DNA from: Pseudomonadota bacterium
GTDB lineage: Bacteria > Pseudomonadota > Alphaproteobacteria > Rhizobiales > Hyphomicrobiaceae
Direction: 5' to 3'
Assembly: GCA_018242255.1 (NCBI GenBank)
Contig: JAFECH010000356.1
Location: forward strand, 1-44,007
DNA: 44,007 nucleotides
Below, piece by piece: positions 17,948 through 39,073 of the stretch. The notes under the pieces were generated by a model that made no database searches, was not told where the DNA came from, and saw only the letters and a list, made by a program, of their open reading frames with translations. How positions within the stretch are numbered: the first letter of the stretch is position 1; each line of letters opens with the position of its first letter. A program made the translations under genes and the position numbers.

Positions 17948-18255
17948 CTCGCCCCGCAAGTGTAACTAACGCTTCAGTTATGCGGTGATTCGCGCCGTGT
18001 GACCGACGTCGGGCGGCCTTCTGCAACATCGGATGTGGATGAGCCCGGATAAGCCCGAACCGCGGCACTTGGGTCCGCAGTCTTGAGCAGCGGCCTTAGG
18101 GTGTCCGCTTGGCTGCGGAAGCGGCACTCCCAGGAAATGGGAAATTAGCGCTAGCGCGAGTCGTCGTCATATCGGATGTCTGCCTTTCGGGATGAAGCAG
18201 ACCCCCTGTTCTCTGCAAAGCAACCGTTCAGCGCTTGTCAAACGTTGCGATCCAT
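17948..18255. other. Intergenic stretch, nothing recognised
   Basis: About 300 bases between the double-barrel gene start and the di-heme gene stop. It contains one weak inverted repeat (GTCTGC at 18178-18183 with GCAGAC at 18197-18202) that may serve as end signal of the di-heme operon. No gene is supported. Confidence 0.4.
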
Positions 18256-19467: not shown

Positions 19468-19984
19468 GGATTGTGAGCCTCATTAATTTATCCGGCGCGC
19501 CGCTGATCTGAACAATCATTGGCCCCGCGCCAAGATCGTACCGGACGCTTTTGTGCAAGCCTGCGCAATTCTTATCGCCAGAAAATGCGGTCGAGGGAAC
19601 CAACGCATTATTCTGCACCACATCGATCCAGGCATGGTTGGGAATGGTGATTTGATAAGTCCCTGGTTTGCCGACCTCGGCGATCGAGAACCAGCCTGAG
19701 AAGCTATTTTTTGCTATGGCCTGTTTCTTGATACCGGGCATAGCCGGTAGTTTAACTGATGGTGAATGTTCGAGCGTCAGCTCGATTGCCTTATCAGGGA
19801 TCGACGCGATGCTACCTCCTGTTGCCACCGCTTCGGCGTCCCGCGCTGCGACCCAACTCAATTCCGTTGCAACCGACCATTGGAAACCTGTGCATGTCTC
19901 GGCGGAGGACGCCGCGCCGGCAAACGCTGCAGCCAAAATCGTAATGAGCAAGAGAGCTTTCACGTGCATGAAATCGCGCGTCAT
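19448..19984 (-). CDS. Periplasmic protein, putative partner of the di-heme enzyme
   Basis: A 178-residue secreted protein. The ATG at 19984 lies 6 bases after GAGGA; another ATG two codons upstream is too close to that site. The signal peptide (MTRDFMHVKALLLITILAAAF) is cleaved near SSAET. The mature part is a small beta-rich domain with C31 and C140 and four Trp (W36, W44, W98, W119), and segments such as SGWFSIAEVGKPGTYQI, PNHAWIDVV and CAGLHKSVRYDL. I do not recognise a named family. It lies between the TonB receptor and the MauG-like protein, overlapping the latter, so it may bind the receptor's metal cargo or be the substrate of the di-heme enzyme. It lacks the four-Cys pattern of MbnP. 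Confidence 0.75.
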   Translation of the reverse strand: MTRDFMHVKALLLITILAAAFAGAASSAETCTGFQWSVATELSWVAARDAEAVATGGSIASIPDKAIELTLEHSPSVKLPAMPGIKKQAIAKNSFSGWFSIAEVGKPGTYQITIPNHAWIDVVQNNALVPSTAFSGDKNCAGLHKSVRYDLGAGPMIVQISGAPDKLMRLTIHASEKK

Positions 19985-20043
19985 CACCATTCCTCATCAA
20001 GACCAGAGCTAACGAAGCTCCGGATTTATGCTGAATTCATTAG

Positions 20044-24647: not shown

Positions 24648-25370
24648 CTATCGCGGCAAGCGTTGCGCTGTAGAACCGGCTTCTATCTCCTCATTCAAAC
24701 TTCCTATCAACCGGCTGGCGGATGAGGCGAACGCGCGACATTCCTGCAAATTAATGACCGTTTTTGTTGCATTTTTCAAACGATCTACAGCTCGTGAATA
24801 GAAGGGCAGGATCGCCGTCACGGCATCCGAAATGCGGATGCGCGCAACCATCCAATCCAGTTTGGCCTGCGCTTCGTCGAATGTGAAAATTCCCTTGTTG
24901 ACCCATTCGACGGCAAGCCAATCGAATGTTTCCAGAAACGAGAGCGAGTCGGCAGCTTGGAGAATGTCTTCTTCGTGATTGCCGCCAATCTCATGCCGAA
25001 GGATTAGAGTGCGAACCCGACGCGCAAAGCGATCGTCGCCGTTAGGCACCTCGGACTTAAGCCACTTATCAACGATATCCGCTGATCTCGTCGAGTGGAG
25101 GAATAAATAATCGGGATTATCGAAGCCGTCCGATGGCGTGCTCGAAGGGCCTCCTGGAAAGAAGCGCTCCGCGTCGTGCACCAGCGCTGCAAACTTCAGT
25201 TCAGGAGAGGCTGAACCCGCAAGCTGGATCGCCCACTTCCGCGCAGCAAGAAGGTGCTCAAGTTGATAAAACCCATCAAGCCATTTTATGGCCTTGAGTT
25301 CAAGTGGACTGAGACTCGCGTCAGCGTACGGAGGTTGTCGATCGGTCGTGCTATTCGGCAGCGTGTTCAT
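24648..25370 (-). CDS. HD-domain protein, last gene of the hydroxypyridine operon
   Basis: A 240-residue soluble protein with an HD-type metal-site pattern: H39 in YQLEHLLAARKWA, H65-D66 in AALVHDAERFFPGG, H92, H126 in LILRHEIGGN and D141 in LQAADSLSFLE. This looks like the DUF4202/HD group, part of the HD phosphohydrolase superfamily. The ATG at 25370 is used; it overlaps the stop of the molybdenum subunit gene by 20 bases, so the two are probably co-translated. A TTG 36 bases further upstream is a weaker option. The function is not known. Because the operon also encodes an aryl-phosphate-forming type kinase pair, a phosphatase acting on a phosphorylated pyridine intermediate is a reasonable hypothesis. 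Confidence 0.75.
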   Translation of the reverse strand: MNTLPNSTTDRQPPYADASLSPLELKAIKWLDGFYQLEHLLAARKWAIQLAGSASPELKFAALVHDAERFFPGGPSSTPSDGFDNPDYLFLHSTRSADIVDKWLKSEVPNGDDRFARRVRTLILRHEIGGNHEEDILQAADSLSFLETFDWLAVEWVNKGIFTFDEAQAKLDWMVARIRISDAVTAILPFYSRAVDRLKNATKTVINLQECRAFASSASRLIGSLNEEIEAGSTAQRLPR

Positions 25371-27798
25371 AAGGCTTTGTCTTGCGCTTCTCTGATTGGT
25401 TTTCAAGTGACGAAGACGTCTTAGCAGCTCGCAACGCTCGCCAGACGGCCTCCGGCGTTAGCGGAAGCTCGGAGATCTCGACACCAAACTCGGCGAGCGC
25501 GTCACAGATTGCATTGGCTATGGCGGCCGCCGGCGGAATGGTCCCGACTTCGCCAACGCCGCGCACGCCAAATGTCGTCACGGGAGAAAGGACCTCCGTA
25601 TGCAGAAGTTCGATCGGCGGAATGTCGGCCGCTGTCGGGACAAAATAATCGAGCATGCTTCCGCTCAACAGCTGACCCGTTTCCCGGTCGTAACGCAGCT
25701 CTTCGCCAAGAGCGGCACCTAGCCCCTGCACGAGCGCGCCGCGGACCTGTCCTTCAACAAGCATGGGATTTACGCTCTTCCCGCAATCATGGACCATCAC
25801 GAAGCGTTCGACAGCGAACTCCCCGGTCTCAGGATCGACCGCGACGACAGAAGCGGCGGTGCCGAAAGAAAATGCGGCGTCGGTAGGCTCGAAAAATGCT
25901 GTGGCCTCCAGGCCAGGGGCATCGCTCGCTGGGATACCTTGGCCGAGTATGGCACGCCGGAAGATTTCCTTCGTCGAAACGGCGCGGGCGTGATTGGATC
26001 TCAAAACGACCACATCACCCTGAATATCTAGGTCTGCCGGACTGGCTTCAAGAATGGCGGCGGCTATCTTGAAAGTCCTTTCTCGGAAGAGCAGCGCAGC
26101 TTTGTTTATAGCGCCCGCCGCGGCGATGAGTGTTCTCGACGCAAATGCGCCGGTATTCAGGGGTGATGCAGCCGTATCGCCCGCGTGGACGTGGATCTTC
26201 TCGTAATCCACGCCGAGAACGTCGGCGCAGATTTGTGCGAAAGCCGTTTCGCTCCCCTGGCCGAACGTCGACACTCCCGTATAGAGATCGATTGATCCGG
26301 AACGATTGGCACGAAGCGTTACGCTCTCGTGCGCGCCGAACTGCGATCCGCGATTGGCGAGGAAGCGTGCGCTTGCGTATCCGGTGCGCTCAACGAATGA
26401 AGACAGACCAACGCCGACGAGCCGACCGTCCGCCCTTGCTGTTCTCGGTCGTGCTCGATGACCAGTATAGTCTACGGCATCCGCCGCGATTTTCAGCGAC
26501 TGCAGATAATCACCGCTATCGTAGATCGCACCGCTCGGAACGCGCCACGGCAAATCAGTGGGCTTTAACATATTCATGGCGCGGAGATCGTAGGGGTCTA
26601 TCGCTAGTTGCCGCGCCAGGCGATCAACGAGAACTTCTAGCGCGAAATTGACCTCGGGCTGGCCGTAACCACGATAAGCTCCGATCGGGGTCTTGTTCGT
26701 GATCGCGACGCTTCTCTTGACACGCGCATCGGCGACTTTGTACGGACCTGTGAAAACTACACTGGATAGCTGAGCTGATCCAAAAGATGAATTCCAGCCT
26801 CCTAAGTCCGTCGTGTAGTTGTTCGTCAATGCCGTGATGCGGCCCGTTCGCTCCGCCGCGACTGCAAAATCGTGCACGGCTTCCCTGCCGTGCGTGCTTG
26901 CCCGAAAGTGCTCCATGCGGTCTTCAACCCATTTCACGGGATGACGCAAAGCCATTGCGTGCAAGCAAGCCAGAATGTCCTCGGGATAGGCCCCGAGCTT
27001 CAATCCAAATGCCCCGCCCACATCGGAGGCCACAACGCGGATCTCGCCTTCGTCGAGCCGTAGCGACTCGGCAAGTTGCTTTCTCACAAGGTGAGGAACC
27101 TGCGTAGACGATTGAACCGCGAGTTCACGCGCACCCGGACGCCAAGACGCCAAGACAGCTCGACCCTCCATCGGGAATGCCGTCACACGGTTGATGCGAA
27201 AGCGGCCGGTCAAAACGACATCGGCTTCGGCCATGATGGCGTCCGGTTTCCCGTTGCTATCGATATTCGATGCCAGCAGATTGGATTCGAGTACGTCCGG
27301 ATGGAGGAGCGGCGCGGCGTCGGAGAGCGTTTCAAGCGTATCGACGACGTGCGGCAATGGCTCGTAGTCGATTTCGATTTGCTCGATGGCGTCTTCGGCA
27401 ATCGCACGGCTTGTCGCGACGACACTGACGACGGCTTGGCCTTCGTGTACTGCAACATCCTGGGCGAGCGCATAATACGGTAGCGGCGGTGCACCCGGCA
27501 CTGGTCTCAAGACCTGTATCGGTTCGCTCAATTTCTTGACGTCAGAACCGACAAGGATGTGCCTGACGCCAATCATCTCCGATGCACGCGAAACATCTAT
27601 GGCGCGAATTCTGGCATGCGGAAACGGACAGCGGCCGACGGCCATCTCGAGCTGATGGGCAAGATCTATATCGTCGACAAAACGTCCGTCTCCCCGCAAG
27701 AGACGATCATCTTCCTTCCGCGGAAGACTGCGCCCGATGAACTCGCTTCCCGATTTGCGCTGGCGTTGAGAGGCATTGCCGCTCACATATTCATTCAC
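25351..27798 (-). CDS. Molybdenum hydroxylase large subunit (CoxL/xanthine-dehydrogenase family)
   Basis: An 815-residue molybdopterin-binding subunit. It has the N-terminal aldehyde-oxidase a/b hammerhead (RKEDDRLLRGDGRFVDDI) and the Mo-site segments DVGGAFGLK at 259-267, AYRGYGQPE at 374-382 and GVRGVGEVG with catalytic E750. The AYRxxGQPE form lacks the active-site Cys of true CO dehydrogenase (AYRCSFR), so it should hydroxylate an aromatic or aldehyde substrate with water as oxygen donor. Context points to hydroxylation of a hydroxypyridine to 2,5-dihydroxypyridine. The start is GTG, overlapping the 2Fe-2S gene stop (GTGA). Partner subunits are the 2Fe-2S protein just upstream and the FAD and CoxG proteins further up the operon. 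Confidence 0.92.
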   Translation of the reverse strand: MNEYVSGNASQRQRKSGSEFIGRSLPRKEDDRLLRGDGRFVDDIDLAHQLEMAVGRCPFPHARIRAIDVSRASEMIGVRHILVGSDVKKLSEPIQVLRPVPGAPPLPYYALAQDVAVHEGQAVVSVVATSRAIAEDAIEQIEIDYEPLPHVVDTLETLSDAAPLLHPDVLESNLLASNIDSNGKPDAIMAEADVVLTGRFRINRVTAFPMEGRAVLASWRPGARELAVQSSTQVPHLVRKQLAESLRLDEGEIRVVASDVGGAFGLKLGAYPEDILACLHAMALRHPVKWVEDRMEHFRASTHGREAVHDFAVAAERTGRITALTNNYTTDLGGWNSSFGSAQLSSVVFTGPYKVADARVKRSVAITNKTPIGAYRGYGQPEVNFALEVLVDRLARQLAIDPYDLRAMNMLKPTDLPWRVPSGAIYDSGDYLQSLKIAADAVDYTGHRARPRTARADGRLVGVGLSSFVERTGYASARFLANRGSQFGAHESVTLRANRSGSIDLYTGVSTFGQGSETAFAQICADVLGVDYEKIHVHAGDTAASPLNTGAFASRTLIAAAGAINKAALLFRERTFKIAAAILEASPADLDIQGDVVVLRSNHARAVSTKEIFRRAILGQGIPASDAPGLEATAFFEPTDAAFSFGTAASVVAVDPETGEFAVERFVMVHDCGKSVNPMLVEGQVRGALVQGLGAALGEELRYDRETGQLLSGSMLDYFVPTAADIPPIELLHTEVLSPVTTFGVRGVGEVGTIPPAAAIANAICDALAEFGVEISELPLTPEAVWRALRAAKTSSSLENQSEKRKTKPYEHAAE

Positions 27799-28301
27799 GG
27801 CAGCTGTTCCATTCCGTTTTTGGCGACGCAGGTTTTCAACAAATATTCTTCGGCAGCCCTTATGATCCCCTCATATCCAGTGCAGCGACAGAGAACACCG
27901 CTGATCTCTTCTCGGATCTCATCCCGCGAGGGAGGCGAGGGCCGGTCTGCGAGGCTCGTTATCAGCATCAGGAAACCCGGCGTGCAATATCCGCATTGCA
28001 GGGCATGATTGCGCTTGAACGCTTCTTGCAGCTCATTCAATTGATCGCCAGCGGCAAGCCCTTCGACTGTCTGTACCTGCGTTCCTTCAAGCTGGGCCGC
28101 AAGCATAAGGCAGGATTTGACCGCTCTGCCGTCGACAATGATCGTGCAGTTTCCGCATACACCCTGCTCGCAGCCGACATGCGTTCCGGTTACGCCCACG
28201 CGATGGCGTAGGAAATCCGCGGCATGCATCCGAACAGGAACGTCGGCGTTGACCTCTTCGCCATTTACTTGGAGAGTGATTTCAATCTCGTTCGTTCCCA
28301 A
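27795..28301 (-). CDS. Molybdenum hydroxylase 2Fe-2S subunit
   Basis: A 168-residue two-cluster ferredoxin-type subunit. The plant-type 2Fe-2S site is C44, C49, C52 (CEQGVCGNC) and C64; the second, all-helical cluster site is C103 and C106 (CGYC) with C138 and C140 (CRC). It passes electrons from the Mo centre to FAD. The likely start is TTG at 28301: AAGGAAGG, which overlaps the nicX stop codon, lies about 9 bases before it and there is no earlier ATG. The stop overlaps the large-subunit start. Confidence 0.93.
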   Translation of the reverse strand: MGTNEIEITLQVNGEEVNADVPVRMHAADFLRHRVGVTGTHVGCEQGVCGNCTIIVDGRAVKSCLMLAAQLEGTQVQTVEGLAAGDQLNELQEAFKRNHALQCGYCTPGFLMLITSLADRPSPPSRDEIREEISGVLCRCTGYEGIIRAAEEYLLKTCVAKNGMEQLP

Positions 28302-28315
28302 GCTGCTGACCTTCC

Positions 28316-29353
28316 TTAGGCCGCTCGTTTGGCGGCAGGACGCATTTCTTTGACGACAACATCTCCGTTCAGCACGATCGGCTCATCGTCGAGGAAGAGG
28401 TTGCAATCACGCATTGGAATATCGAGGTGGCAGGCCGTGTCGTTCGGACCGCCAAGCTCATTGTTCGGTCCGGTCGAAAACATGACGTTGCCAAAAAACG
28501 ATCTGAGCTCCATCCCCATTCCGCCGGGGAACTGCGTCAGTCCGTGCCACTTTGCGCGCTCATCGAGCCCCCATCCGACGTGGGACATGCCGAATCCACG
28601 CGGATCGTTGAACGTCGCCATGTACGATTTGATTAGCTCCGCGTCGAGGCCGCCGCGAATGTCCTGGATCACCCCTTGTTCGATCGTGTAGGTGACCGGC
28701 TCTCGGACATAAGTATTGAACGGCAGCAGAACGTCCCCTGGCGCCAGCACGATCTTGCCGTCAACACCATCATCAGCCCCACCGGTGAATACGAATGCCG
28801 CCGGCCAATGGTCCCAACGGCCTGGCGTGTCGGTATATCCATACTCGCTCATCGTCGGATACATGCCGATTTTGTAAACGACGTCGGTGCCGTGCTTGCT
28901 CGTTATGCGAATCGTCTTCGCTTTCGAGAGCAGTTCAGCGCCAACCTCAACGCGCTCGCGCAGATCGCGCGTCGGAATAAGTCGCGCGAGAAGTGGTGCT
29001 GGTTCGACGGCGGTGAGAACCCTAGCGCCGGCTGCCTGGATCGCCATCTGCTCTCTGCTAAACAGCAGGAAGATCAGATCTACGACCATGTCTGCTTTTT
29101 TTAGCGCTTCTACTGCCTCTGGAAGCTGAGCGAGCTGCGAAACTCCAACCTCCCACGAGCCTGATGTCGGCGACGGCGCCGGGAGCCTCATGTGATAGGC
29201 GCTTGAACCCAACTCCCGGGCAGCTGCCAAAAAAGCGTCTGCATAATCGAGACGCTCGTCACCTTGCGAAAGAATGACAACCTTCTGCCCCTCCCGCACC
29301 GCGCTGAGTTCCAGTTGAATCTTGCAGATCGCGGTCAAAGCATTTCTGTCCAT
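28316..29353 (-). CDS. nicX: 2,5-dihydroxypyridine 5,6-dioxygenase
   Basis: A 345-residue protein closely resembling NicX of Pseudomonas putida throughout (EYGYTDTPGRWDHWP, SHVGWGLDERAKW, ACHLDIPMRDCNLFLDD). The Fe(II) ligands are expected at H258, H309 and D311, matching the His/His-Asp spacing of NicX. The enzyme opens the ring of 2,5-dihydroxypyridine with O2 to give N-formylmaleamate; it is cytoplasmic. The ATG at 29353 has AAAGGAGAG 8 bases upstream and gives the family length, so the longer open frame (to 29563) is rejected. It lies between nicD and the 2Fe-2S gene; this placing joins the ring-hydroxylating and ring-opening steps in one transcript. Confidence 0.93.
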   Translation of the reverse strand: MDRNALTAICKIQLELSAVREGQKVVILSQGDERLDYADAFLAAARELGSSAYHMRLPAPSPTSGSWEVGVSQLAQLPEAVEALKKADMVVDLIFLLFSREQMAIQAAGARVLTAVEPAPLLARLIPTRDLRERVEVGAELLSKAKTIRITSKHGTDVVYKIGMYPTMSEYGYTDTPGRWDHWPAAFVFTGGADDGVDGKIVLAPGDVLLPFNTYVREPVTYTIEQGVIQDIRGGLDAELIKSYMATFNDPRGFGMSHVGWGLDERAKWHGLTQFPGGMGMELRSFFGNVMFSTGPNNELGGPNDTACHLDIPMRDCNLFLDDEPIVLNGDVVVKEMRPAAKRAA

Positions 29354-29387
29354 ACGACGGCTCTCCTTTAGTTTTCTAGGAGCTTCA

Positions 29388-30215
29388 TCACGCGGCTTGT
29401 TGAGCACGCGGAATGAGGCGGACGAGAATTTTGAAAAAGTCCGTAAAGTTGTCCCACGGAACCATGTGTCCTGCGTTCGGTACGGATACGATTGGAATGA
29501 GTGGGTTCGCAGCAGCGAGCTCCGCGGCAGCGGCCGGCGGCACCATCGGGCTAAGCTCGCCACGAATGAGTGTGGCGGGCCGTTTCAAGGCCGACCACAG
29601 AGGAAAGAAGTCCTCCTGATCGAACCCCGCATGTGTCTCCACGATCGCGGTTTCATCGCAGCTTGCGAGAACATCAGCGCGCAACTGCAACTCCCGGGTT
29701 TGCCATTTCGGATAGAACTTGCGAACCTCCTCGGCCGTCGTTCCGCGCTTCGCCGCATGCAACTGTGTGAGGAAAGCTTCTTTGCTTGTCGGATAAGAGC
29801 CGCGCCCGGGTCCAGACGTCGGTGGATCGACGATCACAAGCATCCCATGATCGTCCGGGCAAAACTGCGCGGCATACGCCGCAGCGATCCGAGCGCCTAA
29901 AGAATGCCCAATGATATGGGGACGAACGAGGCCAAGAGCTGAGATCAGGCCGGCGATATCGGATGCGTAATCGGTCAAGCGGTAATGGCCTGATGGCGGC
30001 GTATCAGTTTGCCCTCGACCTCTCAGATCGGGCACGAAAACATTAAATCCCAGAGCTGCCAACGGCGAGGCGATGAAATCCGCCGTCGCAGCCGGACTGG
30101 TAATCCCAGGAACGATCACGACGTTGCCCGCCGCCCCGCCGGTGTACGTCAGAAGGTGGTGGCGGAGCCCATTCGCAGCTATTTGGCTGGAGCTGCCTGA
30201 GATTGCAATGCTCAC
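29388..30215 (-). CDS. nicD: N-formylmaleamate deformylase (alpha/beta hydrolase)
   Basis: A 275-residue alpha/beta hydrolase. Nucleophile elbow GHSLG with S105, acid D130 in VIVDPP (after strand 6, the unusual position reported for NicD) and H250 in NAGHMVPW form the triad; VPDLRGRGQTD is the usual oxyanion-side segment. In the pathway it splits N-formylmaleamate, the NicX product, to maleamate and formate. The start overlaps the nicE stop (ATGA) and the gene is followed after 34 bases by nicX. Assignment to NicD relies on context plus the triad positions, which match the known enzyme within a few residues. Confidence 0.88.
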   Translation of the reverse strand: MSIAISGSSSQIAANGLRHHLLTYTGGAAGNVVIVPGITSPAATADFIASPLAALGFNVFVPDLRGRGQTDTPPSGHYRLTDYASDIAGLISALGLVRPHIIGHSLGARIAAAYAAQFCPDDHGMLVIVDPPTSGPGRGSYPTSKEAFLTQLHAAKRGTTAEEVRKFYPKWQTRELQLRADVLASCDETAIVETHAGFDQEDFFPLWSALKRPATLIRGELSPMVPPAAAAELAAANPLIPIVSVPNAGHMVPWDNFTDFFKILVRLIPRAQQAA

Positions 30216-30973
30216 GCTGCGGCCTCCATCGTCTCGGAAGCGAGTGCGGCCCCGGCGTTTGGCAGGCTCGGTGAGAGGCCGAGCGCCAAAAGTATTTCGC
30301 GCGTCGTCGCCGTTGCCGCCGTCACGACTGGCAGCCCGGTTGCATCCTGAACCAACTGCACCGCGGGAAGCGACGGCATCTGAACACAGGCGCTGAGGAC
30401 GATGCCATCAACGCCGGACAGATCGAGCTTTTGCACGTATCCGGGAAGAGCCGCAGGATCGAGCCGTCCAACCATGAGATTGTCGGAAACAGCAAGACTG
30501 ACGCTATCGAGGACCGAAACTCCGGAGTCTTCGATATAGCTGATAACGGTTCGCGTGAGCTCGGGCATGTAAGGCGCCACCAGCGCCACCTTGCGTAGCC
30601 CAAGACTCTTCAGCGTTCGCGCAAGCGCGCCTGCGCTGCTGACGATCGGGGGAGATGTACCGCGATCTGCCGTGATGACATCAGAAAATCGCTTCTCCGT
30701 CGCGATATGTGCGCCGGCACCGCGCGACATGAGGGCAACGAGGCAAGCATAAGCAACGACATCGACGTCTGCGTCACCGACCTCAACCGCGCAACGCTCG
30801 CCATCATCGACCATGCGCGCCAGCGACGCGATATCGACCGTGTGAAGCCGCGCGCGGCTGGTGTGAAACGTAAAACGGGTTCCGTGTTTCTGAGAATGTC
30901 TTGCGAGCATCTCCGGAATTTCCGTTTCCATCGTCGTGTTGGAGCTCGGGACGATCAATCCGATGCGGTGCAT
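30212..30973 (-). CDS. nicE: Maleate cis-trans isomerase
   Basis: A 253-residue member of the Asp/Glu racemase-like maleate isomerase family. PSSNTTMETEIP near the N-terminus, C77 in VAYACLVAL and C196 in VLSACVQMPS are the two active-site cysteines and substrate-binding loops. It converts maleate to fumarate, which enters the TCA cycle, the last step of the route. The ATG overlaps nothing upstream (95-base gap to the CoxG gene), and its stop overlaps the nicD start by 4 bases. Confidence 0.92.
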   Translation of the reverse strand: MHRIGLIVPSSNTTMETEIPEMLARHSQKHGTRFTFHTSRARLHTVDIASLARMVDDGERCAVEVGDADVDVVAYACLVALMSRGAGAHIATEKRFSDVITADRGTSPPIVSSAGALARTLKSLGLRKVALVAPYMPELTRTVISYIEDSGVSVLDSVSLAVSDNLMVGRLDPAALPGYVQKLDLSGVDGIVLSACVQMPSLPAVQLVQDATGLPVVTAATATTREILLALGLSPSLPNAGAALASETMEAAA

Positions 30974-31068
30974 GAAACTTTCGGAACTCCCATGATTGTT
31001 TTTTGGTTTTTGACTTGGAGCATCGCCGCTCCATATCGCGAGTGTGATGTCATTCGTGGGGGCCTATC

Positions 31069-31713
31069 TCACGGCTGCACTCCGAGACGCCAAAGAATGA
31101 CGAGACTCAAGACGACCGACAGGGCGCTGAACACCGCTGAGGCTTTGGACCAGAGGTCTCCTCTTAGGGCCATTCCCGCTGACGCCATATCGAGTCGCGG
31201 AGAGGGCTTTGGCAGAGAACCGCGCGATAGCAATTTTTGAGCACCGTCCGCCTTCGCGGCCAGGTCGCCGCCGGAGAGCACAAGCGCCAGATTTTGCGCA
31301 AACTCGGCCGTCACTTTGTCCGCCTGCTTCATGATGATCTTCTGGCCGACACTGCCGAGCATGCCGGCGAGCACCACTTCTCCCTCCACGGTGACACGGG
31401 TGCGATCGCCGATCGGTTCGAGGCTGACAGTATTCGTCGCGCGAAAATTTCCGACCGCGCCACGAATTGCTTTGCCCGTTGAAGAGAATTGCAGGCGTTC
31501 TTCGGAAACTCTCTCCGTGATATGAACTTTGGATTCTAGGGTCGCGCTGATCGGTCCGACTTTTTGCGTAGCTCGAACGATGAGTGTGTCCGCGTCCACG
31601 ACTTGGACCGACTCCACACCCGGGATGCAGGTCGCCACACGATCGGGCTGTTCGAAGAAAGCCCAAATGCGGCCGATCCGATCGCTAACTTCGAATTCTT
31701 GTCGAAACTTCAC
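31069..31713 (-). CDS. CoxG/SRPBCC-family subunit with C-terminal membrane anchor
   Basis: A 214-residue protein. Residues 1-145 are a CoxG-type SRPBCC domain (VSDRIGRIWAFFEQPDRVATCIPG, VGPISATLESKV, MLGSVGQKIIM). A variable linker follows and a C-terminal membrane helix (SKASAVFSALSVVLSLVILW). In CO dehydrogenase systems CoxG recruits the enzyme to the inner membrane; in the published 3-hydroxypyridine dehydrogenase an SRPBCC protein is a required separate component, and this gene fits that role. The start is GTG with GAGG 6 bases upstream. It follows the FAD subunit gene by 9 bases. Confidence 0.9.
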   Translation of the reverse strand: MKFRQEFEVSDRIGRIWAFFEQPDRVATCIPGVESVQVVDADTLIVRATQKVGPISATLESKVHITERVSEERLQFSSTGKAIRGAVGNFRATNTVSLEPIGDRTRVTVEGEVVLAGMLGSVGQKIIMKQADKVTAEFAQNLALVLSGGDLAAKADGAQKLLSRGSLPKPSPRLDMASAGMALRGDLWSKASAVFSALSVVLSLVILWRLGVQP

Positions 31714-31722
31714 GAAGTGCCT

Positions 31723-32598
31723 CTAATTCAATGAACTGGGGGAAGCCGACGTCCGGAATTCACGCAGCAGCCGCGGGACGTGGACGGAAACAAGGTGACG
31801 GCGGTATTCTTCGCTTGCTCGCATATCGCTTGGTGGTGAAATAGCTCGGCCCGCAGCCTCGGCCGCCGCCGCGATATCGCTGTCATCCAAAAGTGATCCG
31901 TCGAGGTGCGCGCCTGCCTCTTCGACAATAATGGGCGTATCGTGGACCCCGCCCAAACCAATCCTTACGTTTGACCAACGACCCTCTTCGTCGCGATCGC
32001 CGACTATGGCGATGGACAAGACTGCGAAATCGTTGTGTCTCCGATTGAGTTCGCGAAATGCATGATGGATCGGATGACGCGGAAAGATGATCTCAACCAA
32101 AATCTCGTCTGGGGCGATCGCCGCCGCGTACGATCCTTCGTAGAAATCCTGCATCGGAATTTCGCGGGCCTTGCCATTGCTGATCACACGCACGCGAGCG
32201 CCAAGCACCAAACATCCGAGCGGCATTTCTCCTGTCGGGTCGGCCTGGACTAAACTTCCGCCGATCGTCCCGCGGTTGCGCACCTGACGATCGGCAACGT
32301 GCCGGATCATTCGCGCAAGCAACGGAAGGCGTTCTGCAACAAGACTGGAGGTCTCGACGGTAACATGACGGACCAAGCCACCCAATACTGTTTCAGAACC
32401 ACGAACCTCAATTCGGCTCAGTTCTTCGAGCCCGTTAATATCGATAAGGGCAGCAGGGCGCAGCAGACGCATATTTAGCATCGGGACAAGACTTTGCCCG
32501 CCCGCCAAGATGCGCGCGGTTCCGTCGTAGTCGACCAGAAGGCGGAGAGCCTCGTCGATCGAATGTGCACGATGATAAATGAAGTCTGCAGCCTTCAT
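31723..32598 (-). CDS. Molybdenum hydroxylase FAD-binding subunit (CoxM-like)
   Basis: A 291-residue flavoprotein. The two FAD-pyrophosphate motifs are AGGQS at 32-36 and TIGG at 111-114 (RNRGTIGGSLVQADP), followed by a CoxM-type C-terminal domain. It accepts electrons from the 2Fe-2S subunit and passes them on. The ATG at 32598 overlaps the stop of the PEP-synthase-like ATP-binding gene (ATGA), so the longer open frame starting at 32745 is not used. The FAD subunit is thus split from the Mo and 2Fe-2S genes by five genes, while staying in the same operon. Confidence 0.92.
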   Translation of the reverse strand: MKAADFIYHRAHSIDEALRLLVDYDGTARILAGGQSLVPMLNMRLLRPAALIDINGLEELSRIEVRGSETVLGGLVRHVTVETSSLVAERLPLLARMIRHVADRQVRNRGTIGGSLVQADPTGEMPLGCLVLGARVRVISNGKAREIPMQDFYEGSYAAAIAPDEILVEIIFPRHPIHHAFRELNRRHNDFAVLSIAIVGDRDEEGRWSNVRIGLGGVHDTPIIVEEAGAHLDGSLLDDSDIAAAAEAAGRAISPPSDMRASEEYRRHLVSVHVPRLLREFRTSASPSSLN

Positions 32599-33692
32599 GA
32601 ATTTGCCGATTTGGCGACCGGCTGGGAGACGCGAATCCCCGAAAGCCGTGCCAACACCTGATTGACCGGGGATGCCTGCGCCGAGACAACGCGAGCTGCC
32701 GCCTTGCGGCTCCAAACCGTTTCGGGCCGTACCTGAAGCACGCAAATATCACCCTGGTGGCTGACGCCCCATTCGATGTCCTGCGGCGCGCCGCGGGCGA
32801 CCTCGATCTGCTTCGCAAGCGTCGCTAAACGAACAACATGGTCATCATCGAGGCAGAGTTTATCCTGCCGGTCCTGTTCGATCGGCGTTAGCCCGACGCC
32901 GCCAAGCGATGGATCGAACCGGTATTCTTCGAGCTGAGTTACAGGCTTCTTCCGCGTGATTTCGAATGTGACCTTGTCGACGGCGAATTGACTGGGAGTG
33001 ATGTCGCCCTTGACGACGCCTTCGCCGAGCCCCCAGCACGCCTCAAGAACGATTTTCGAACGATCTCCATTAATCGGATCGAGCGTGAACATCACGCCCG
33101 CCGCGCGTGCCTCGAGCATCTGTTGGACTCCGACGCATATACCGAAGTCGCCTTTCGAAATTACAGTCTCGCCATCCTGGCGATAGGAGAGAACGGCGTC
33201 ACCAAACATTCCCGCCCAACAGGCGCGCATATTGCGGAGAACCTCGTCAATCCCGCAAATCCAGAGGAACGTCTCGTATTGTCCGGCGAAGCTCGCGCCG
33301 GCGAGATCTTCGGATTCGCCCGACGAGCGCACCGCAACTGGCACACCCTGTCGCTGCGTTCGCGTTTCCAGGAGCGCATAATTCTTCCGAATCTCATCTT
33401 CCAAATCGGCCGGAAGCGGTGCCGTCTTTATTCCGTTGACGAGTGCAGTCGCCTCTTCCTTGATTTCGTGAAGCGCAAGCTTGGGTGCAATTTCACGCAC
33501 TCGCCTCGCCTCATCGACCAGGCCCGAGGCTGCCATGAAATACCGATAGGCTGCCGTCGTAATTCCAAAACCGTGCGGAACCGAAAGACCGGCTCCGACC
33601 ATCTCGGCCAGGCTCGCAAACTTGCCTCCAAGGAGTGGATTGCCGACCGAAGTGGGATCGTCGAGCCAGAGTACATAAGGCATTGTTGTCAA
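32595..33692 (-). CDS. PEP synthase/PPDK ATP-binding-domain protein (phenylphosphate synthase small subunit-like)
   Basis: A 365-residue stand-alone pyruvate-phosphate-dikinase N-terminal (ATP-grasp) domain: NPLLGGKFASLAEMVGAGL, VAVRSSGESEDLAGASFAGQYET, VMFTLDPINGDRSKIVLEACWGLGEGVV and ICVLQVRPETVW. It lacks the His-carrier and PEP-binding domains, which are respectively on the next-door gene and absent. The 40-kDa size and split layout match PpsB of phenylphosphate synthase, which uses ATP to charge a His on its partner. The likely start is TTG at 33692 (GAGGAGA 8 bases before, overlapping the partner's stop as TTGA); an ATG three codons in is the alternative. Confidence 0.88.
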   Translation of the reverse strand: MTTMPYVLWLDDPTSVGNPLLGGKFASLAEMVGAGLSVPHGFGITTAAYRYFMAASGLVDEARRVREIAPKLALHEIKEEATALVNGIKTAPLPADLEDEIRKNYALLETRTQRQGVPVAVRSSGESEDLAGASFAGQYETFLWICGIDEVLRNMRACWAGMFGDAVLSYRQDGETVISKGDFGICVGVQQMLEARAAGVMFTLDPINGDRSKIVLEACWGLGEGVVKGDITPSQFAVDKVTFEITRKKPVTQLEEYRFDPSLGGVGLTPIEQDRQDKLCLDDDHVVRLATLAKQIEVARGAPQDIEWGVSHQGDICVLQVRPETVWSRKAAARVVSAQASPVNQVLARLSGIRVSQPVAKSANS

Positions 33693-35572
33693 CGCGGGCT
33701 CTCCTCGATTACGCGAACGGTACCAACGTAACCATCAACTTCGATGATATCGCCGGTTCGGATGGTAGATGTCGCGAAGCCCGTTCCAACGACGGCGGGA
33801 AGCCCGTATTCGCGGGAGATGATTGCCGTATGCGCCATCATCCCGCCGACATCGGAGATCGCTGCCGAGATCCGCGTAAAGACTGGCGCCCAGCTCGGGG
33901 CCGTCACCCGGCAAACTAGAATGTCGCCTTGGTCGATTTCATATAGTTGCGACGGCTCGGTAATGACGCGTGCCTTGCCCGTTACCTTGCCAGCTGAAGC
34001 TGCGACGCCTTTCAGCGTCTTCCCCGTGGCCGACGGGTCAACGCCCAGCCATTCTTGAACGGTTTCTTGAGTAATACCCCAGAGCATAACAGTCAGCGGT
34101 TCCGTAATGCTTTCCGGCGGCAAGCCCAGTGCTGGCGGTGGCGACCACTTGGCGAGCGTGTCGCGAATTTTTCGCCGTTCGGCGATGATCGGCTTCCAAT
34201 AGATCTCGCCGCGCGGCTGTGACCCTGTCGCCCAACCAATCAGGAGATCATAGAGTGCGTCGTAGATCTCGTGGCGGTGCAGATAGAAAATGTCTTCGCG
34301 ATCGTTGAAGAACTTGTGAGCGACGAAGACATCTCCGAGTTCGCGTACCTTGGCCCAAAAGATCGAATGGTGCCAATGCTCAACGTAGAAGTTATGATCC
34401 TCGACATAGGGAAAAACCTTGCGCGTCAGCTCGATGAGCCCGTCGAATGCAGCGCGATCGTCGTCTGTCGGCAGCAGGAGACGGTACTCCGCCGTGACCC
34501 GCGTCCGCTTCTCAAGGATCTGTTCGAGCGGTCGGCGAATTTCCTCGCCCCGCCGAAGTGCCTCGATGTAGCCCCGGATCGCCGTAAACGGCAGTCGCAG
34601 ATCATCCATCCAAACCGGATCGGAATGCGTGTATCCGACGCCCGTGGAGAACCAGAACCAAGGATCTTTCGCCTTTTCAAGCGCCTCGAGCCAAGCCGCT
34701 CCGCTCGGCGCTGCCTTTAATTTGTCAAGGACCGCATCGGGGTGGTCATCCGCCACGAGCAGATCGGCGATGTTTAGTTCGACTGCGAACTGCGCTAATC
34801 GGCGTAATTCGTCGTCAGGCCGGAAGAGCAGGATGTCGATACCCGACACCATGCTCGTAACGGTCTGATCTGTGATGCCAGGGAATGCGTGCTGGCAAAA
34901 TTCGCGGAAGGTTAAGTACGCGCCGTAGCCGAGATTGAGCATCTCGAAATGGTAAGACCCCATCTCGAGCATGTTCTCAATGAGCCGGCTATAGCTCGTC
35001 AGCAAATCGAACGACGAGTAAACGCCGCGATGCTTGAATACACTTGCATCAGGTTCGTATTGCGGCAGCGGTTTAAACGACAAGGCCTTCAGACGATCGA
35101 TGCAGTCGACCGCCTTCTTCTTCCACTCAGCGTAGATCGCGTCCCAATTCTCGAAATAATGTCCGGCCCGCTGAGCGAATATTTCCTGCCTTTCGGCCAC
35201 GACGGATGGGTCCGTAACCGCGTTCGGACTAATGTAGAGATAGCCGTTGATGACGCGGTGATCGATGCCCATCGCCGGCGGGATGGGCCATACCCGGCTG
35301 GTCATTAGGCTGGCCGCAACCCACCAGTTTTCGGTCATGATCGTATCGAAGGGATAGAGCGGCTCCGGATTATGCATCCCGTCGAAGAACCAGAACTTTC
35401 CCTCTTCGAGTTCCCGCCTTTCGGGGCTGATCAGAGCATAGTAGGGGAACATCTTCTCCCAGCCCTCGGCACCCGGCGGCGTCGCCACGTCAAATGGGCT
35501 CGCAAATCGGTTCTTCTTCTCGGCGCCGCCAGAATCGTCTTGAGCTGGCTCGACCTTGTTCACGATATTCAC
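33689..35572 (-). CDS. PEP-utilising-enzyme mobile-domain protein (phenylphosphate synthase large subunit-like)
   Basis: A 627-residue protein. The C-terminus has the swivelling phosphohistidine domain with H581 in GGMMAHTAIISREYGLPAVVG. The first 500 residues have no PEP-binding TIM barrel but an alpha-helical region with many Trp and aromatic residues, as in the 70-kDa PpsA subunit, which binds the phenolic acceptor. GTG at 35572 has GGAGG 6 bases upstream and leaves a 46-base gap after nicF; the longer frame from 35656 would overlap nicF and has no ribosome site. Its stop overlaps the ATP-binding partner. The pair was reported as needed for 3-hydroxypyridine dehydrogenase activity in Ensifer adhaerens HP1; phosphoryl transfer to the hydroxypyridine is my inference. 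Confidence 0.87.
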   Translation of the reverse strand: MNIVNKVEPAQDDSGGAEKKNRFASPFDVATPPGAEGWEKMFPYYALISPERRELEEGKFWFFDGMHNPEPLYPFDTIMTENWWVAASLMTSRVWPIPPAMGIDHRVINGYLYISPNAVTDPSVVAERQEIFAQRAGHYFENWDAIYAEWKKKAVDCIDRLKALSFKPLPQYEPDASVFKHRGVYSSFDLLTSYSRLIENMLEMGSYHFEMLNLGYGAYLTFREFCQHAFPGITDQTVTSMVSGIDILLFRPDDELRRLAQFAVELNIADLLVADDHPDAVLDKLKAAPSGAAWLEALEKAKDPWFWFSTGVGYTHSDPVWMDDLRLPFTAIRGYIEALRRGEEIRRPLEQILEKRTRVTAEYRLLLPTDDDRAAFDGLIELTRKVFPYVEDHNFYVEHWHHSIFWAKVRELGDVFVAHKFFNDREDIFYLHRHEIYDALYDLLIGWATGSQPRGEIYWKPIIAERRKIRDTLAKWSPPPALGLPPESITEPLTVMLWGITQETVQEWLGVDPSATGKTLKGVAASAGKVTGKARVITEPSQLYEIDQGDILVCRVTAPSWAPVFTRISAAISDVGGMMAHTAIISREYGLPAVVGTGFATSTIRTGDIIEVDGYVGTVRVIEESPR

Positions 35573-35618
35573 CGTGGACCTCCACACATCTCGTTTGCTG
35601 CGCCCAAATTTCCAACTC

Positions 35619-36263
35619 TCATTTCTCTCGAGCCTCCAAGGATTCGAGATATTCAAGTGTCTCGCTCAAGGGGATGACGTCGGCATATTTCTGACGAATG
35701 TCGAAAAGATTGGCCTCGTGCGGAGCGGTCGCTCTATCCGCGACGCATTCTTCCGGGACGAGAACGTCATAGCCCGACTGGACCGCATCAACGACGGTTG
35801 CGCGAACGCAACCGCTCGTCGTCGCTCCCGTGACGATCAAGGTGTCTGCGCGCCACGACGCGAGCAGGGTTGGCACGTTGGTGCCGAAGAATGCGGACGC
35901 ACCTAATTTGACTACGATCGGCTCGCGATCATCGCGCTGAAGTCTGCCGTCGATTTCAACAAGACGCGACCCGGACTTCAGAGCCGTCAATCCAACCGAT
36001 TTTCGAAGCCAAGGCAGCGAGTCGATGTGGGCCGCCTCGTAGCTGATCGTCGTGAATGCGATGGGCACGCCCTTTCGACGAGCGCATGTGAGCAGCTTCG
36101 CCGTCGCATCTATAGCACCGTCTGCATCAGTGGCGGTCGGATATGTAGCGTCCGTAAATCCATACGAAAAATCGACGACTAATATCGCCGGTCGCTGACC
36201 GCGCGTGACGCTCCGACCAAATCCGGCATCCCGATAAACGTCCGCAACGGCAAGCCTATTCAT
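35619..36263 (-). CDS. nicF: Maleamate amidohydrolase (isochorismatase family)
   Basis: A 214-residue cysteine hydrolase. Catalytic triad D31 (LVVDFSYGF), K119 (VVKLGASAFFGT) and C152 (ATTSGCVRATVVDA), with the cis-peptide segment before the Cys. It hydrolyses maleamate, the NicD product, to maleate and ammonia. The ATG at 36263 is used; a TTG nine codons upstream lacks a ribosome site. It is the first gene of the catabolic operon, with a promoter and a GntR-type operator about 75-120 bases upstream. Confidence 0.9.
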   Translation of the reverse strand: MNRLAVADVYRDAGFGRSVTRGQRPAILVVDFSYGFTDATYPTATDADGAIDATAKLLTCARRKGVPIAFTTISYEAAHIDSLPWLRKSVGLTALKSGSRLVEIDGRLQRDDREPIVVKLGASAFFGTNVPTLLASWRADTLIVTGATTSGCVRATVVDAVQSGYDVLVPEECVADRATAPHEANLFDIRQKYADVIPLSETLEYLESLEAREK

Positions 36264-36336
36264 ATAGCTTCGTGCCCATTTTATTGCCAATCCGGTCCCG
36301 CGAAACGGTCTTGAACGGCGCCCTCATTCGGCATAC

Positions 36337-36503: not shown

Positions 36504-37880
36504 ATGTTTGTTGAACAATTGAAGCTTGAAAATCTGACTTTCGCGTTCGTCTACGCGGTTGGAGCCGTTAGTGTGCTCTTTGTCGTCATGGGGCTTGGCC
36601 TCATCGATATGGGCTTGGTGCGCGCGCGCAACGTGCTCGATACGTGGGTGCAAAAGTTCACGGCGGCCATTATCGCAGGATTTGGCACGCTTTTTATCGG
36701 TTATGCGATTTGGCAATATCAGTTCTATATCGCATTCGCCGTTCCCGATCCCCTTATTCAGGCATTCAAGGACTGGTGGATCGGCGGTGGCGCAGCCAGC
36801 TCTCTCTCCGTCAAGCTAGATCCCAAAGTCGTGCCGGAGGCGGACATCCAGCAAATCTTCTTGGTATTCTTTGTCACGTTTTCGATGGCGACCGCGGCTC
36901 TCATCCACAGCAGCGTCATTGAACGAATTAAGGGCGTGCCGTTCTGCGTGATGGCGTTCCTGATCGGATTGGTCTTCTCACCCGTCGTCGGCTATCTCTG
37001 CTGGGGACCGCTGTCGCCGCTGACGAATTCGGGCACACACGACTTCGAAGGGGTCTTCCCGCTCTACATCTTCTCCGGAACATGGGCGCTCGTTCTCTCC
37101 TGGCGTTTAGGACCGCGCCTTGGCGCTCTCAAATCGCATCCCGACGGCGTAAAACCGACGCCGAGCAATCAGGCTCTCGTAGCTCTCGGCGTTCTTTTCA
37201 TTTTCATCGCCATTCCGTTCGTTTCGATCGGTTCAACGTGGGTTCTGCCAGACAAAGGGGTCTACGGGATCTCGATGACGCAGACCGGCATTGGACTGAT
37301 CCTCATCAACATCTTTAGTGCCATGCTGACGGGCGGCGTCATCGGTGCTCTCATCGGCTGGACCCGTAAGGACGTCTCGTGGGTGTTTCTCGGACCGATC
37401 GCCGGTGCTGTCATCAGCGGCACGCTGTTCGACATCGGAACGCCGCTCCAATGCATGGTATTTGGTGGGTTGGGTCCGATCGTCGCCTTCGCTACGAGCC
37501 GACTTGTGCATGGGCTCGGCATCGAGGAGCCTAAGGTCGTGCCGCTTGCGCTTGGCCCGGGCATCGTGGGTGCCATTCTGGTCGGATTTGTTCATTGGGG
37601 AACGCCGACCGGCGGTTTCCCTGGATTGGAAGGCGCATTGGCTGCCGGACACGCGACGATCACACCGTATTGGCAGCTTATGGGTGTGATTGCGACTATG
37701 GTCGTCGCAGGCGTCCCGGCGCTTCTCCTTTGCTTCTTCTTCGAGATGACGACTGGCTTGCGCGTCTCGACCGAAGCTGAACTCAAAGGGCTGGATGATA
37801 CAAACTGGGGTGCCAGCAATTTCGGGGATGACCTTCGTGGCACCAGCCTCGCGACGGCGAGTCATATCCCGGCTGAGTGA
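36504..37880 (+). CDS. Amt/Rh-fold membrane transporter lacking the twin-His motif, probable hydroxypyridine uptake protein
   Basis: A 458-residue protein with about 11 membrane helices. It aligns along its length with AmtB: D180 and W167 match AmtB D160 and W148, and the tail GLRVSTEAELKGLDDTNWG matches GLRVPEEQEREGLD. However the pore His pair is gone: Y188 (FPLYIFSG) replaces H168, and A349 (VPLALGPGIVGAI) replaces H318. Ammonium conduction by the standard mechanism is therefore doubtful. It is divergent from the catabolic operon and shares its operator region, so import of 3-hydroxypyridine or a similar neutral heteroaromatic is a good hypothesis. AAGGGG precedes the ATG by about 10 bases. 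Confidence 0.82.
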   Translation: MFVEQLKLENLTFAFVYAVGAVSVLFVVMGLGLIDMGLVRARNVLDTWVQKFTAAIIAGFGTLFIGYAIWQYQFYIAFAVPDPLIQAFKDWWIGGGAASSLSVKLDPKVVPEADIQQIFLVFFVTFSMATAALIHSSVIERIKGVPFCVMAFLIGLVFSPVVGYLCWGPLSPLTNSGTHDFEGVFPLYIFSGTWALVLSWRLGPRLGALKSHPDGVKPTPSNQALVALGVLFIFIAIPFVSIGSTWVLPDKGVYGISMTQTGIGLILINIFSAMLTGGVIGALIGWTRKDVSWVFLGPIAGAVISGTLFDIGTPLQCMVFGGLGPIVAFATSRLVHGLGIEEPKVVPLALGPGIVGAILVGFVHWGTPTGGFPGLEGALAAGHATITPYWQLMGVIATMVVAGVPALLLCFFFEMTTGLRVSTEAELKGLDDTNWGASNFGDDLRGTSLATASHIPAE

Positions 37881-38344: not shown

Positions 38345-39073
38345 ATGACCGACCTGTTGGGTGATTTAATCGACGGGCCGATCGCAGTTCGGACGAGCGA
38401 GGGCATTGCGCATGTGATTCGCAGGGCCATTCTGGCAGGCCGATTGGTCCCAGGTACAGAATTGCCCGAACGCAAGCTGGCGGAAGAACTGTCGGTAAGC
38501 CGTACTCCTGTCCGGGAGGCTTTATTTGTGCTTCAAGGCGAGGGGCTGATCGACCTCGTCCCGGGGCGTTGCGCGCGCGTTCGCGAAGTATCTACGAGTG
38601 AAATCGAAGAGATTTTTGTTCTCAGGCGGTTGCTCGAAACGCACGCGGTGAAGCGCGCGGCTAAGTTGAGAAATTCGCCGAAGATCAGTAAAATCGAAGA
38701 TGCCTTGGCCCAACAGAAGCGCCTGGGGCAAGCAGGCACCATCTTGGAGCAGGCGCAGGCGGATCTCGCATTTCACGAAGCCATCGCCGATGCGGCAGGC
38801 AGCCAGCTTCTGGTGACGCTGGTCCGTCGTGTGTTTGCGATTACCGTAACGTATCGCTTCGCTTACAAATATTCCGCGCCGCGCACGTCACGCGTTTTTA
38901 AGCAGCACAGTGCGATACTTGAGGCGATCACATCTGGCGAAGGCGCTGAAGCGGAATCGCTTATGTCGCAACACATCAAGGAATCGAGCGAACTCGTCTT
39001 GAAGAATGTGAGAGGGAATCAGGAATTCAAAGATAAGATGCGCGAAGATGTCGAGGTGGACGTCGACGCCTGA
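38345..39073 (+). CDS. GntR-family (FadR/FCD) transcriptional regulator
   Basis: A 242-residue regulator. The winged HTH is at about 15-80 (GRLVPGTELPERKLAEELSV, then SRTPVREAL). The C-terminal FCD domain carries the usual metal and ligand residues: D and H in QADLAFHEAIADAAG, H in FKQHSAILEAI and H in SLMSQHIKES. GGAG lies about 9 bases before the ATG. FCD regulators release DNA when a pathway acid or intermediate binds, so this is probably the repressor of the hydroxypyridine operon, acting at the two listed operators. It is the right-most gene of the cluster. Confidence 0.92.
   Translation: MTDLLGDLIDGPIAVRTSEGIAHVIRRAILAGRLVPGTELPERKLAEELSVSRTPVREALFVLQGEGLIDLVPGRCARVREVSTSEIEEIFVLRRLLETHAVKRAAKLRNSPKISKIEDALAQQKRLGQAGTILEQAQADLAFHEAIADAAGSQLLVTLVRRVFAITVTYRFAYKYSAPRTSRVFKQHSAILEAITSGEGAEAESLMSQHIKESSELVLKNVRGNQEFKDKMREDVEVDVDA

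Follow-up and report, generated by a model that had tools for sequence, protein, structure and literature searches.

Why should an operon that appears to oxidise a hydroxypyridine carry two genes resembling parts of a phosphoenolpyruvate (PEP) synthase? This question is raised by a contig from a bacterium of the Hyphomicrobiaceae (JAFECH010000356.1 of assembly GCA_018242255.1, positions 1 to 44,007; the whole stretch of 44,007 nucleotides is referred to as the window), in which a two-gene kinase pair lies on the minus strand together with genes for a molybdenum hydroxylase, for the breakdown of 2,5-dihydroxypyridine and for a 252-residue HD-domain protein. We consider it probable that 3-pyridyl phosphate is the substrate of the hydroxylase and that the HD protein then frees 2,5-dihydroxypyridine. 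The observations behind this proposal are the gene content, the family of the kinase, the fold of its large subunit, the similarities of the enzymes of the lower pathway and the close co-occurrence of kinase, hydroxylase and HD genes; the substrate, the order of steps and the HD activity are drawn from analogy, and the chemical reason from general knowledge. If correct, it would account for the two PEP-synthase-like genes required by an operon that oxidises a pyridine, add two intermediates to the pathway and supply a chemical reason, namely that an electron-rich ring is made attackable. It would also describe, to our knowledge, the first molybdenum hydroxylase needing a phosphorylated substrate.

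The kinase pair and its operon

The two kinase genes stand side by side on the minus strand and encode separately an ATP-grasp subunit of 365 residues (32595-33692) and a large subunit of 627 residues (33689-35572), which joins an acceptor-binding domain to a phosphohistidine swivel domain. The phosphohistidine, H581 (codon at 33830-33832), sits in DVGGMMAHTAIISREYG, where SDVGGMMAH fits the T/SxxGGxxxH motif near the C-terminus, and is invariant in all 46 aligned large subunits. The PEP-utilisers swivel domain (residues 546-617, E 7.4e-22) is the sole Pfam domain of the large subunit at E <= 0.001, and PPDK_N extends across residues 19-336 of the small one (E 9.3e-87). With NCBIfam, the large subunit falls into family PRK08296 (NF006153; 815 bits vs a cut-off of 578), and the best model for the small subunit is PEP synthase, but below the model cut-off; its best solved match is 9goj_A, which is HpeI (E 1.3e-67). 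An AlphaFold model of the large subunit (38 sequences; predicted local distance difference test, pLDDT, 89.5; predicted template modelling score, pTM, 0.90) found rifampin phosphotransferase at all of Foldseek ranks 1-6 (611-623 columns, E 1.1e-13 or better), followed by pyruvate kinase, pyruvate phosphate dikinase and enzyme I at E 3e-4 or worse and with TM-scores to the query of at most 0.16. The two frames, H581 and the ATP-grasp domain named in the original prediction are confirmed by coordinates, Pfam and motif, and neither Pfam nor the Foldseek search of the AlphaFold model revealed a PEP barrel in the large protein, as had also been stated there.

In BLASTP, the large subunit is 46% identical over 611 columns to that of the Azoarcus pps/ppc cluster and 45% identical to that of a Rhodococcus cre-type cluster, the identity of both comparison proteins resting on annotation and gene order rather than on assays. 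These identities, the HpeI match and the rifampin-phosphotransferase fold indicate a phenol-type kinase, not a PEP-making enzyme. Sequence, fold and phylogeny give good support to the assignment of the gene pair to the two-component phenolic dikinases of the PpsAB/CreHI/HpeHI subfamily, and likewise to the earlier description of the pair as a kinase of the phenylphosphate-synthase type. The kinase family itself is already known: it was described with HpeHI, where H581 of HpeH is essential and HpeH, CreH and PpsA are about 45% identical (PMC12167813), and a more distant pair phosphorylates aniline (PMC7500099). By analogy, the pair of the window is predicted to convert ATP into AMP and Pi while phosphorylating an aromatic hydroxyl. 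A tblastn search with Azoarcus PpsC confirms the lack of this subunit: the best E-value in the window was 0.06, which speaks against a concealed copy. Among 93 loci with kinase relatives, PpsC was found (tblastn, E 1e-3) only in the query's own source locus, the anaerobic phenol cluster, so that its absence is no weakness.

The operon occupies 24648-36290 of the minus strand. It opens with an isochorismatase-family hydrolase (35619-36290; PDB 4l07, E 9e-69), a probable maleamate amidase from its pathway context, which is followed by the large and small kinase subunits, the FAD subunit of the hydroxylase (31723-32598; Pfam) and a separate CoxG/SRPBCC subunit (31069-31713; Pfam). Then come a maleate isomerase (30212-30973; PDB 4fq7, E 1.2e-63), an alpha/beta hydrolase whose context suggests an N-formylmaleamate deformylase (29388-30215), a NicX-like 2,5-dihydroxypyridine 5,6-dioxygenase (28316-29353; PDB 7cn3, E 1.7e-91), the 2Fe-2S subunit (27795-28301; Pfam), the molybdenum subunit (25351-27798; Pfam, PDB 1t3q) and finally the 252-residue HD-domain phosphohydrolase-like protein, the proposed phosphatase (24648-25406), the gene of which overlaps the molybdenum-subunit gene and has a possible ATG at 25370. 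Because the two kinase genes share a 4-nt TTGA overlap, provided that the TTG start is used, and the stop of the small one shares a 4-nt ATGA overlap with the ATG of the FAD-subunit gene, translation of the kinase genes appears to be coupled to that of the hydroxylase.

The relatives of the NicX-like dioxygenase and the maleate isomerase imply that the downstream route begins at 2,5-dihydroxypyridine, and genes for the breakdown of this compound with a molybdenum hydroxylase in front of them make 3-hydroxypyridine the likely substrate of the pathway, as judged from sequence relationships. A bacterium has been reported to convert 3-hydroxypyridine into 2,5-dihydroxypyridine, and in Agrobacterium DW-1 both compounds and maleic or fumaric acid were detected by liquid chromatography-mass spectrometry (PMC6525221). 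The whole block is syntenic in a congener at 71-89% protein identity, which shows that the arrangement is not due to chance, and only one of 21 other species of the genus has the kinase in the sampled genomes, which marks the cluster as an accessory island.

Co-occurrence of kinase, hydroxylase and HD genes

Relatives of the kinase were sought with six peptide patterns from the large subunit in one genome each of 84,980 species; 197 relatives matched, the best 80 of which were kept and gave 79 loci. A quick tree was calculated from 88 large subunits, comprising the window and the extracted rows except for six of 93 (L001, which duplicates the window, three remote rows and two truncated rows). 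The large subunit of the window falls into a clade of 34 with a Shimodaira-Hasegawa-like approximate likelihood ratio (SH-aLRT) of 99, the tree having been made without bootstrap. The loci of this clade share the FAD, CoxG, 2Fe-2S and molybdenum-subunit genes as far as their stretches reach, save for L042, where CoxG had no match. Molybdenum hydroxylases also occur at a sister pair (L045, L046) and at a deeper pair (L047, L053), the latter representing a sister lineage in Acidimicrobiia. L053 additionally contains ABC-transporter genes, a second FAD-type subunit and a nitrilase-family gene. NicX-like genes were found in all eight clade genomes tested; in L017, L018, L022, L024 and L030 the lower-pathway genes are mostly located elsewhere, with a NicX-like gene in each genome, and kinase, hydroxylase and HD genes remain together. 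The distances of the subunits are correlated (r 0.74-0.95, 23 loci), values which are not used as proof since they come with no null for shared descent.

The HD gene, overlooked in the original prediction, is present in 33 of the 34 genomes of the clade. It lies on the same stretch as the kinase in the window and 27 further clade loci, and elsewhere in the assembly in five of the six remaining members (L015, L021, L026, L042 and L044, the last with one internal stop in the gene); it was also found in L075, a truncated clade member, in the congener and on the stretches of the sister pair L045 and L046. In Proteobacteria it follows the molybdenum-subunit gene, in Actinobacteria the CoxG gene, which indicates that it was kept through rearrangement. 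None of nine genomes from other kinase clades has it (E 1e-5). Among 398 sampled genomes of the phylum, three matched at E 1e-10, namely the source genome and two with weak, distant matches beside other kinds of genes; five other genomes with a kinase match, apparently of the same sample, are not among these three.

When the HD protein served as the sole tblastn query against 72,556 plasmids (E 1e-5), a single record matched, NC_011961.1 of Thermomicrobium roseum (37% identity, E 9e-16). The matching gene, annotated as hypothetical, lies between those for the small kinase subunit and the FAD subunit, in a cluster (56118-65556 of the record; L148 2119-11557) that also contains a divergent large kinase subunit (27% identical), the molybdenum and 2Fe-2S subunits, and cyclase-family, fumarylacetoacetate-hydrolase-family and GntR genes. 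Its product keeps all 21 invariant residues checked, out of 32 that are invariant in the alignment. This is a second, distant cluster of kinase, molybdenum hydroxylase and HD genes, which a kinase search of the plasmids at E 1e-40 had missed. The kinase (762835-764631) and molybdenum-subunit genes of another Thermomicrobium locus (L008) were not counted as linked, because an opposite-strand accC gene stands between them. The distribution in clade and sampled genomes together with the plasmid search rules out that the HD gene is a random neighbour.

The HD protein itself gives weak single-sequence matches to DUF4202 and HD. It shows both the H...HD...H...D metal-ligand pattern and the all-helical fold of the HD superfamily: the ligand positions H51, H77-D78, H104, H138 and D153 are invariant in all 29 aligned relatives, and HD proteins head the fold matches of the all-helical model (pLDDT 87.6). 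PF01966 is matched at E <= 0.01 by five of the 29 family members. Two distant relatives of the protein (L150 1653-2222 and L151 5162-5863) adjoin a fused nucleotidyltransferase/CDP-alcohol phosphatidyltransferase gene, with an inositol-phosphate-synthase-like gene nearby in L151, the names of these neighbours being read from translations; from their gene context, they may be phosphatases in a pathway of the di-inositol-phosphate type.

The hydroxylase consists of molybdenum, 2Fe-2S and FAD subunits and has the catalytic glutamate in a GxGE motif, as expected for the xanthine oxidase family; this glutamate, E750 of the molybdenum subunit, is present in all 22 clade rows. The molybdenum subunit aligns with QorL (PDB 1t3q) over residues 20-790 (E 3e-149), and it differs from QorL and other molybdenum hydroxylases in its constant kinase neighbours and in arginines at positions 299 and 362 and in a loop comprising 471-483. 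Arginines 299, 362, 471, 478 and 483 are found in 22 of 22 clade rows. In a background of 33 rows (28 from genomes of relatives, three from other kinase loci and two solved enzymes), arginine occurs once at 299, never at 362 and once at 483; at 471 it is visible once (L129), only the commonest letters being tabulated for 471 and 478. The loop with three of these arginines presumably lines the substrate channel, by an alignment-based comparison with the Phe1009 region of xanthine oxidase. The clade arginines would fit an anionic substrate, a weakly suggestive pattern that shared descent alone could also give.

The proposed route and its alternatives

The carbons that molybdenum hydroxylases attack are electron-poor and adjoin a ring nitrogen; a carbon in this position becomes electron-rich when the ring bears a free 3-oxido group. 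In the route we propose, the ATP-grasp subunit would bind ATP and H581 of the large subunit would take up the beta-phosphate, with ATP ending as AMP and Pi; the swivel domain would then transfer the phosphate to the hydroxyl group of 3-hydroxypyridine. The ring would thereby lose the electron-donating oxyanion, which hampers nucleophilic attack, and gain an anionic handle. The hydroxylase, made up of molybdenum, 2Fe-2S and FAD subunits with the separate CoxG protein, would hydroxylate 3-pyridyl phosphate at the carbon that adjoins the ring nitrogen and lies para to the phosphate, and the resulting 6-hydroxy-3-pyridyl phosphate would be stripped of its phosphate by the HD protein. The 2,5-dihydroxypyridine thus formed would be opened by NicX, and deformylase, amidase and isomerase would carry the product to fumarate.

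The order of these steps is modelled on the Hpe pathway of Rhodococcus rhodochrous GD02 for hydroxyphenylethanones, in which the HpeHI kinase acts first, HpeCBA carboxylates only the phosphorylated compounds and a dedicated phosphatase, HpeD, prefers the carboxylated product (PMC12167813; PMC9618137). It resembles the window in its two-component dikinase, the small subunit matching HpeI best among solved structures, and in a next enzyme that requires the phosphorylated ring, as we propose here; unlike the window with its molybdenum hydroxylase and HD protein, it uses a biotin carboxylase for the middle step, a NagD-related phosphatase and benzenoid phenols as substrates. The operon for the 4-cresol pathway of Corynebacterium glutamicum (CreHI, CreJEF and CreD) likewise combines a kinase with an oxidising enzyme and a phosphohydrolase, which reportedly act in this order. 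It differs in that the oxidation is catalysed by a P450. The gene order of the cre operon in C. glutamicum (PMC7764795) has creD, a phosphohydrolase, where Rhodococcus operons have an HD protein, so that the cre-type operons of Rhodococcus resemble the window in this respect, the two HD proteins not being close relatives. PpsAB, the precedent chosen in the original prediction, is valid for the split kinase, its phosphohistidine and the 46% identity of the large subunits, but HpeHI and CreHI are closer functional precedents. The window lacks not only the PpsC CBS subunit of anaerobic phenol degradation but also, among the identified operon genes, a UbiD-type carboxylase like Ppc, and its dioxygenase-based pathway is aerobic, unlike that of anaerobic phenol degradation.

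The partners of the other kinase groups were surveyed with markers from annotated relatives. A UbiD-type carboxylase and a HAD protein were found in 22 of 24 loci, a biotin carboxylase and a HAD protein in two loci, and a P450 with an HD protein at the place of creD in two others. On balance, we favour the view that phenol-type dikinase, molybdenum hydroxylase and HD phosphatase form a three-part module in which a temporary phosphate makes hydroxypyridines oxidisable, that this module exists in two very distant forms, one in the 3-hydroxypyridine clade and one in the Thermomicrobium cluster, and that it is one case of a wider rule combining the dikinase with an interchangeable enzyme and a matching phosphatase. 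In practice, any dikinase of this kind would then be a reason to search its neighbourhood for a partner enzyme and for a small phosphatase. An archaeal kinase pair of Haladaptatus salinisoli (L013, NZ_CP085331.1) lies near a Rieske ring-hydroxylating dioxygenase and a metallophosphoesterase, and is possibly one more such combination.

The window very probably contains the same type of cluster as that of the 3-hydroxypyridine dehydrogenase described in 2020, for which a CoxG homologue is noted in a citing paper, the two clusters being compared here by type and not by gene-by-gene identity. A literature search that had most subscription papers and this key 2020 paper outside its scope found no dikinase acting with a molybdenum hydroxylase, no dedicated HD protein and no phosphorylated N-heterocycle as an intermediate. 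Wang et al. in 2020 reportedly found both kinase genes to be needed, left their function open and mentioned no HD protein. The idea of a phosphorylated pyridine, already put forward in the original prediction, is strengthened by the HD phosphohydrolase-like gene that accompanies the kinase pair in the clade; this support is indirect, and the substrate and the preference of the hydroxylase are inferred.

Several observations weigh against this route. The 2020 enzyme is, reportedly by the title of the paper, a 3-hydroxypyridine dehydrogenase catalysing the first step. The HD protein reaches 17.1 bits with PF01966, below the Pfam cut-off of 22; none of its fold matches is better than E 0.012, and one of them is to a non-phosphatase, cyanamide hydratase. 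BLASTP against the CreD-type HD protein of cre-type operons gave nothing, and hhalign gave E 0.0018 but a probability of 14.8; a direct homology of the two was therefore dropped, and only membership of the same superfamily is claimed. The HD gene was not found in L031, a metagenome-assembled genome (MAG), and L047 and L053 combine kinase, hydroxylase and CoxG with no HD homologue genome-wide, which rules out that the gene is universal in clusters linked to the molybdenum enzyme; a Pfam search of nine L053 frames gave no phosphatase family, three of the nine being without any family. The arginine-rich loop is lacking in the Thermomicrobium molybdenum subunit and is partly kept in the four sister rows (L045, L046, L047, L053), where arginine occupies position 299 in four, 362 in three and 471 in one, 478 being arginine in one and lysine in three, and 483 arginine in one and histidine in three. 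The markers identified no partner enzyme in 20 of the 88 tree rows, among which L062, L071 and L074 hold a CreD-type HD gene, and the rule of partner plus phosphatase is therefore not universal as tested. Finally, the accessible part of the DW-1 report names no phosphorylated intermediate (PMC6525221), for a strain that may or may not carry this cluster.

Other explanations of the same genes have to be weighed with these points. The kinase might merely hold 3-hydroxypyridine in the cell, from where the HD protein would free it for a hydroxylase that uses the free compound. Kinase and HD protein would be accounted for equally well, and a trapping of diffusible phenols is proposed by the HpeHI authors (PMC12167813). 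Such a scheme would nevertheless spend two phosphoanhydride bonds per turn in a futile cycle if kinase and phosphatase were not kept apart. It would also leave the requirement for the kinase genes unexplained, if the finding reported for the 2020 work holds and the assay was cell-free. In the Hpe relative, the phosphate is indispensable to the enzyme that follows the kinase, and HpeD prefers the product of that enzyme (PMC9618137). We regard this explanation as unlikely. A phosphate route completed by a general phosphatase of the cell, with the HD protein serving as a hydratase, nucleotidase or regulator, would agree with the lack of the gene in L047 and L053, with cyanamide hydratase among the structural neighbours and with a dissimilarity to the CreD-type protein too great for a transfer of function. 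The near confinement of the HD gene to kinase clusters in the samples searched, and a superfamily to which the protein encoded in place of creD in cre-type operons also belongs, argue for the proposed phosphatase by analogy and make the alternative quite improbable.

The pair might also phosphorylate another target, either a later intermediate or a protein or cofactor in the maturation of the molybdenum enzyme, a role that would likewise make the kinase necessary for hydroxylase activity, and this kinase clade may accept other substrates. The characterised members of the subfamily, however, act on small phenols, or on aniline in the case of the more distant one, according to the available parts of the reports (PMC12167813; PMC7500099), and the acceptor domain is modelled with a rifampin-binding fold. 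Moreover, a molybdenum-subunit match was found in 19 of 41 related genomes, and 17 of these 19 gave none for the kinase (E 1e-40), which implies that such hydroxylases generally do not need a kinase; another target thus seems decidedly improbable. As for ordinary parts of a PEP synthase or pyruvate dikinase that supply PEP or energy, the best NCBIfam model of the small subunit would point to them, albeit below its cut-off, but the large subunit has no PEP/pyruvate barrel, belongs to PRK08296 and, outside the swivel domain, matches rifampin phosphotransferase and not PEP synthase. Its fold already contradicts this role and rules it out, which leaves hardly any probability for an explanation of this kind.

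Other genes of the window and the data set

Two genes on the plus strand adjoin the operon. The first encodes a divergent ammonium-transporter homologue (36504-37880), which is kept beside the cluster in many relatives, with a match of more than 300 residues in 16 clade loci, and which reaches 120 bits against a TIGR00836 cut-off of 343. Its Y188 is invariant in 17 of 17 rows and presumably stands at the position of the first channel histidine; the protein may therefore carry something other than ammonium, perhaps hydroxypyridine. The second is a GntR/FCD regulator (38345-39073), a possible regulator of the cluster that is tied to it by position only. Further away on the minus strand (16295-22278), an outer-membrane beta-barrel, a MauG/MbnH-type di-haem protein and a TonB-dependent receptor are encoded near one another and look like a separate set for metal or cofactor uptake. 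Among the kinase loci, that of a MAG titled Bifidobacterium breve (L093) groups with kinases of uncultured actinobacteria, and its title is probably wrong.

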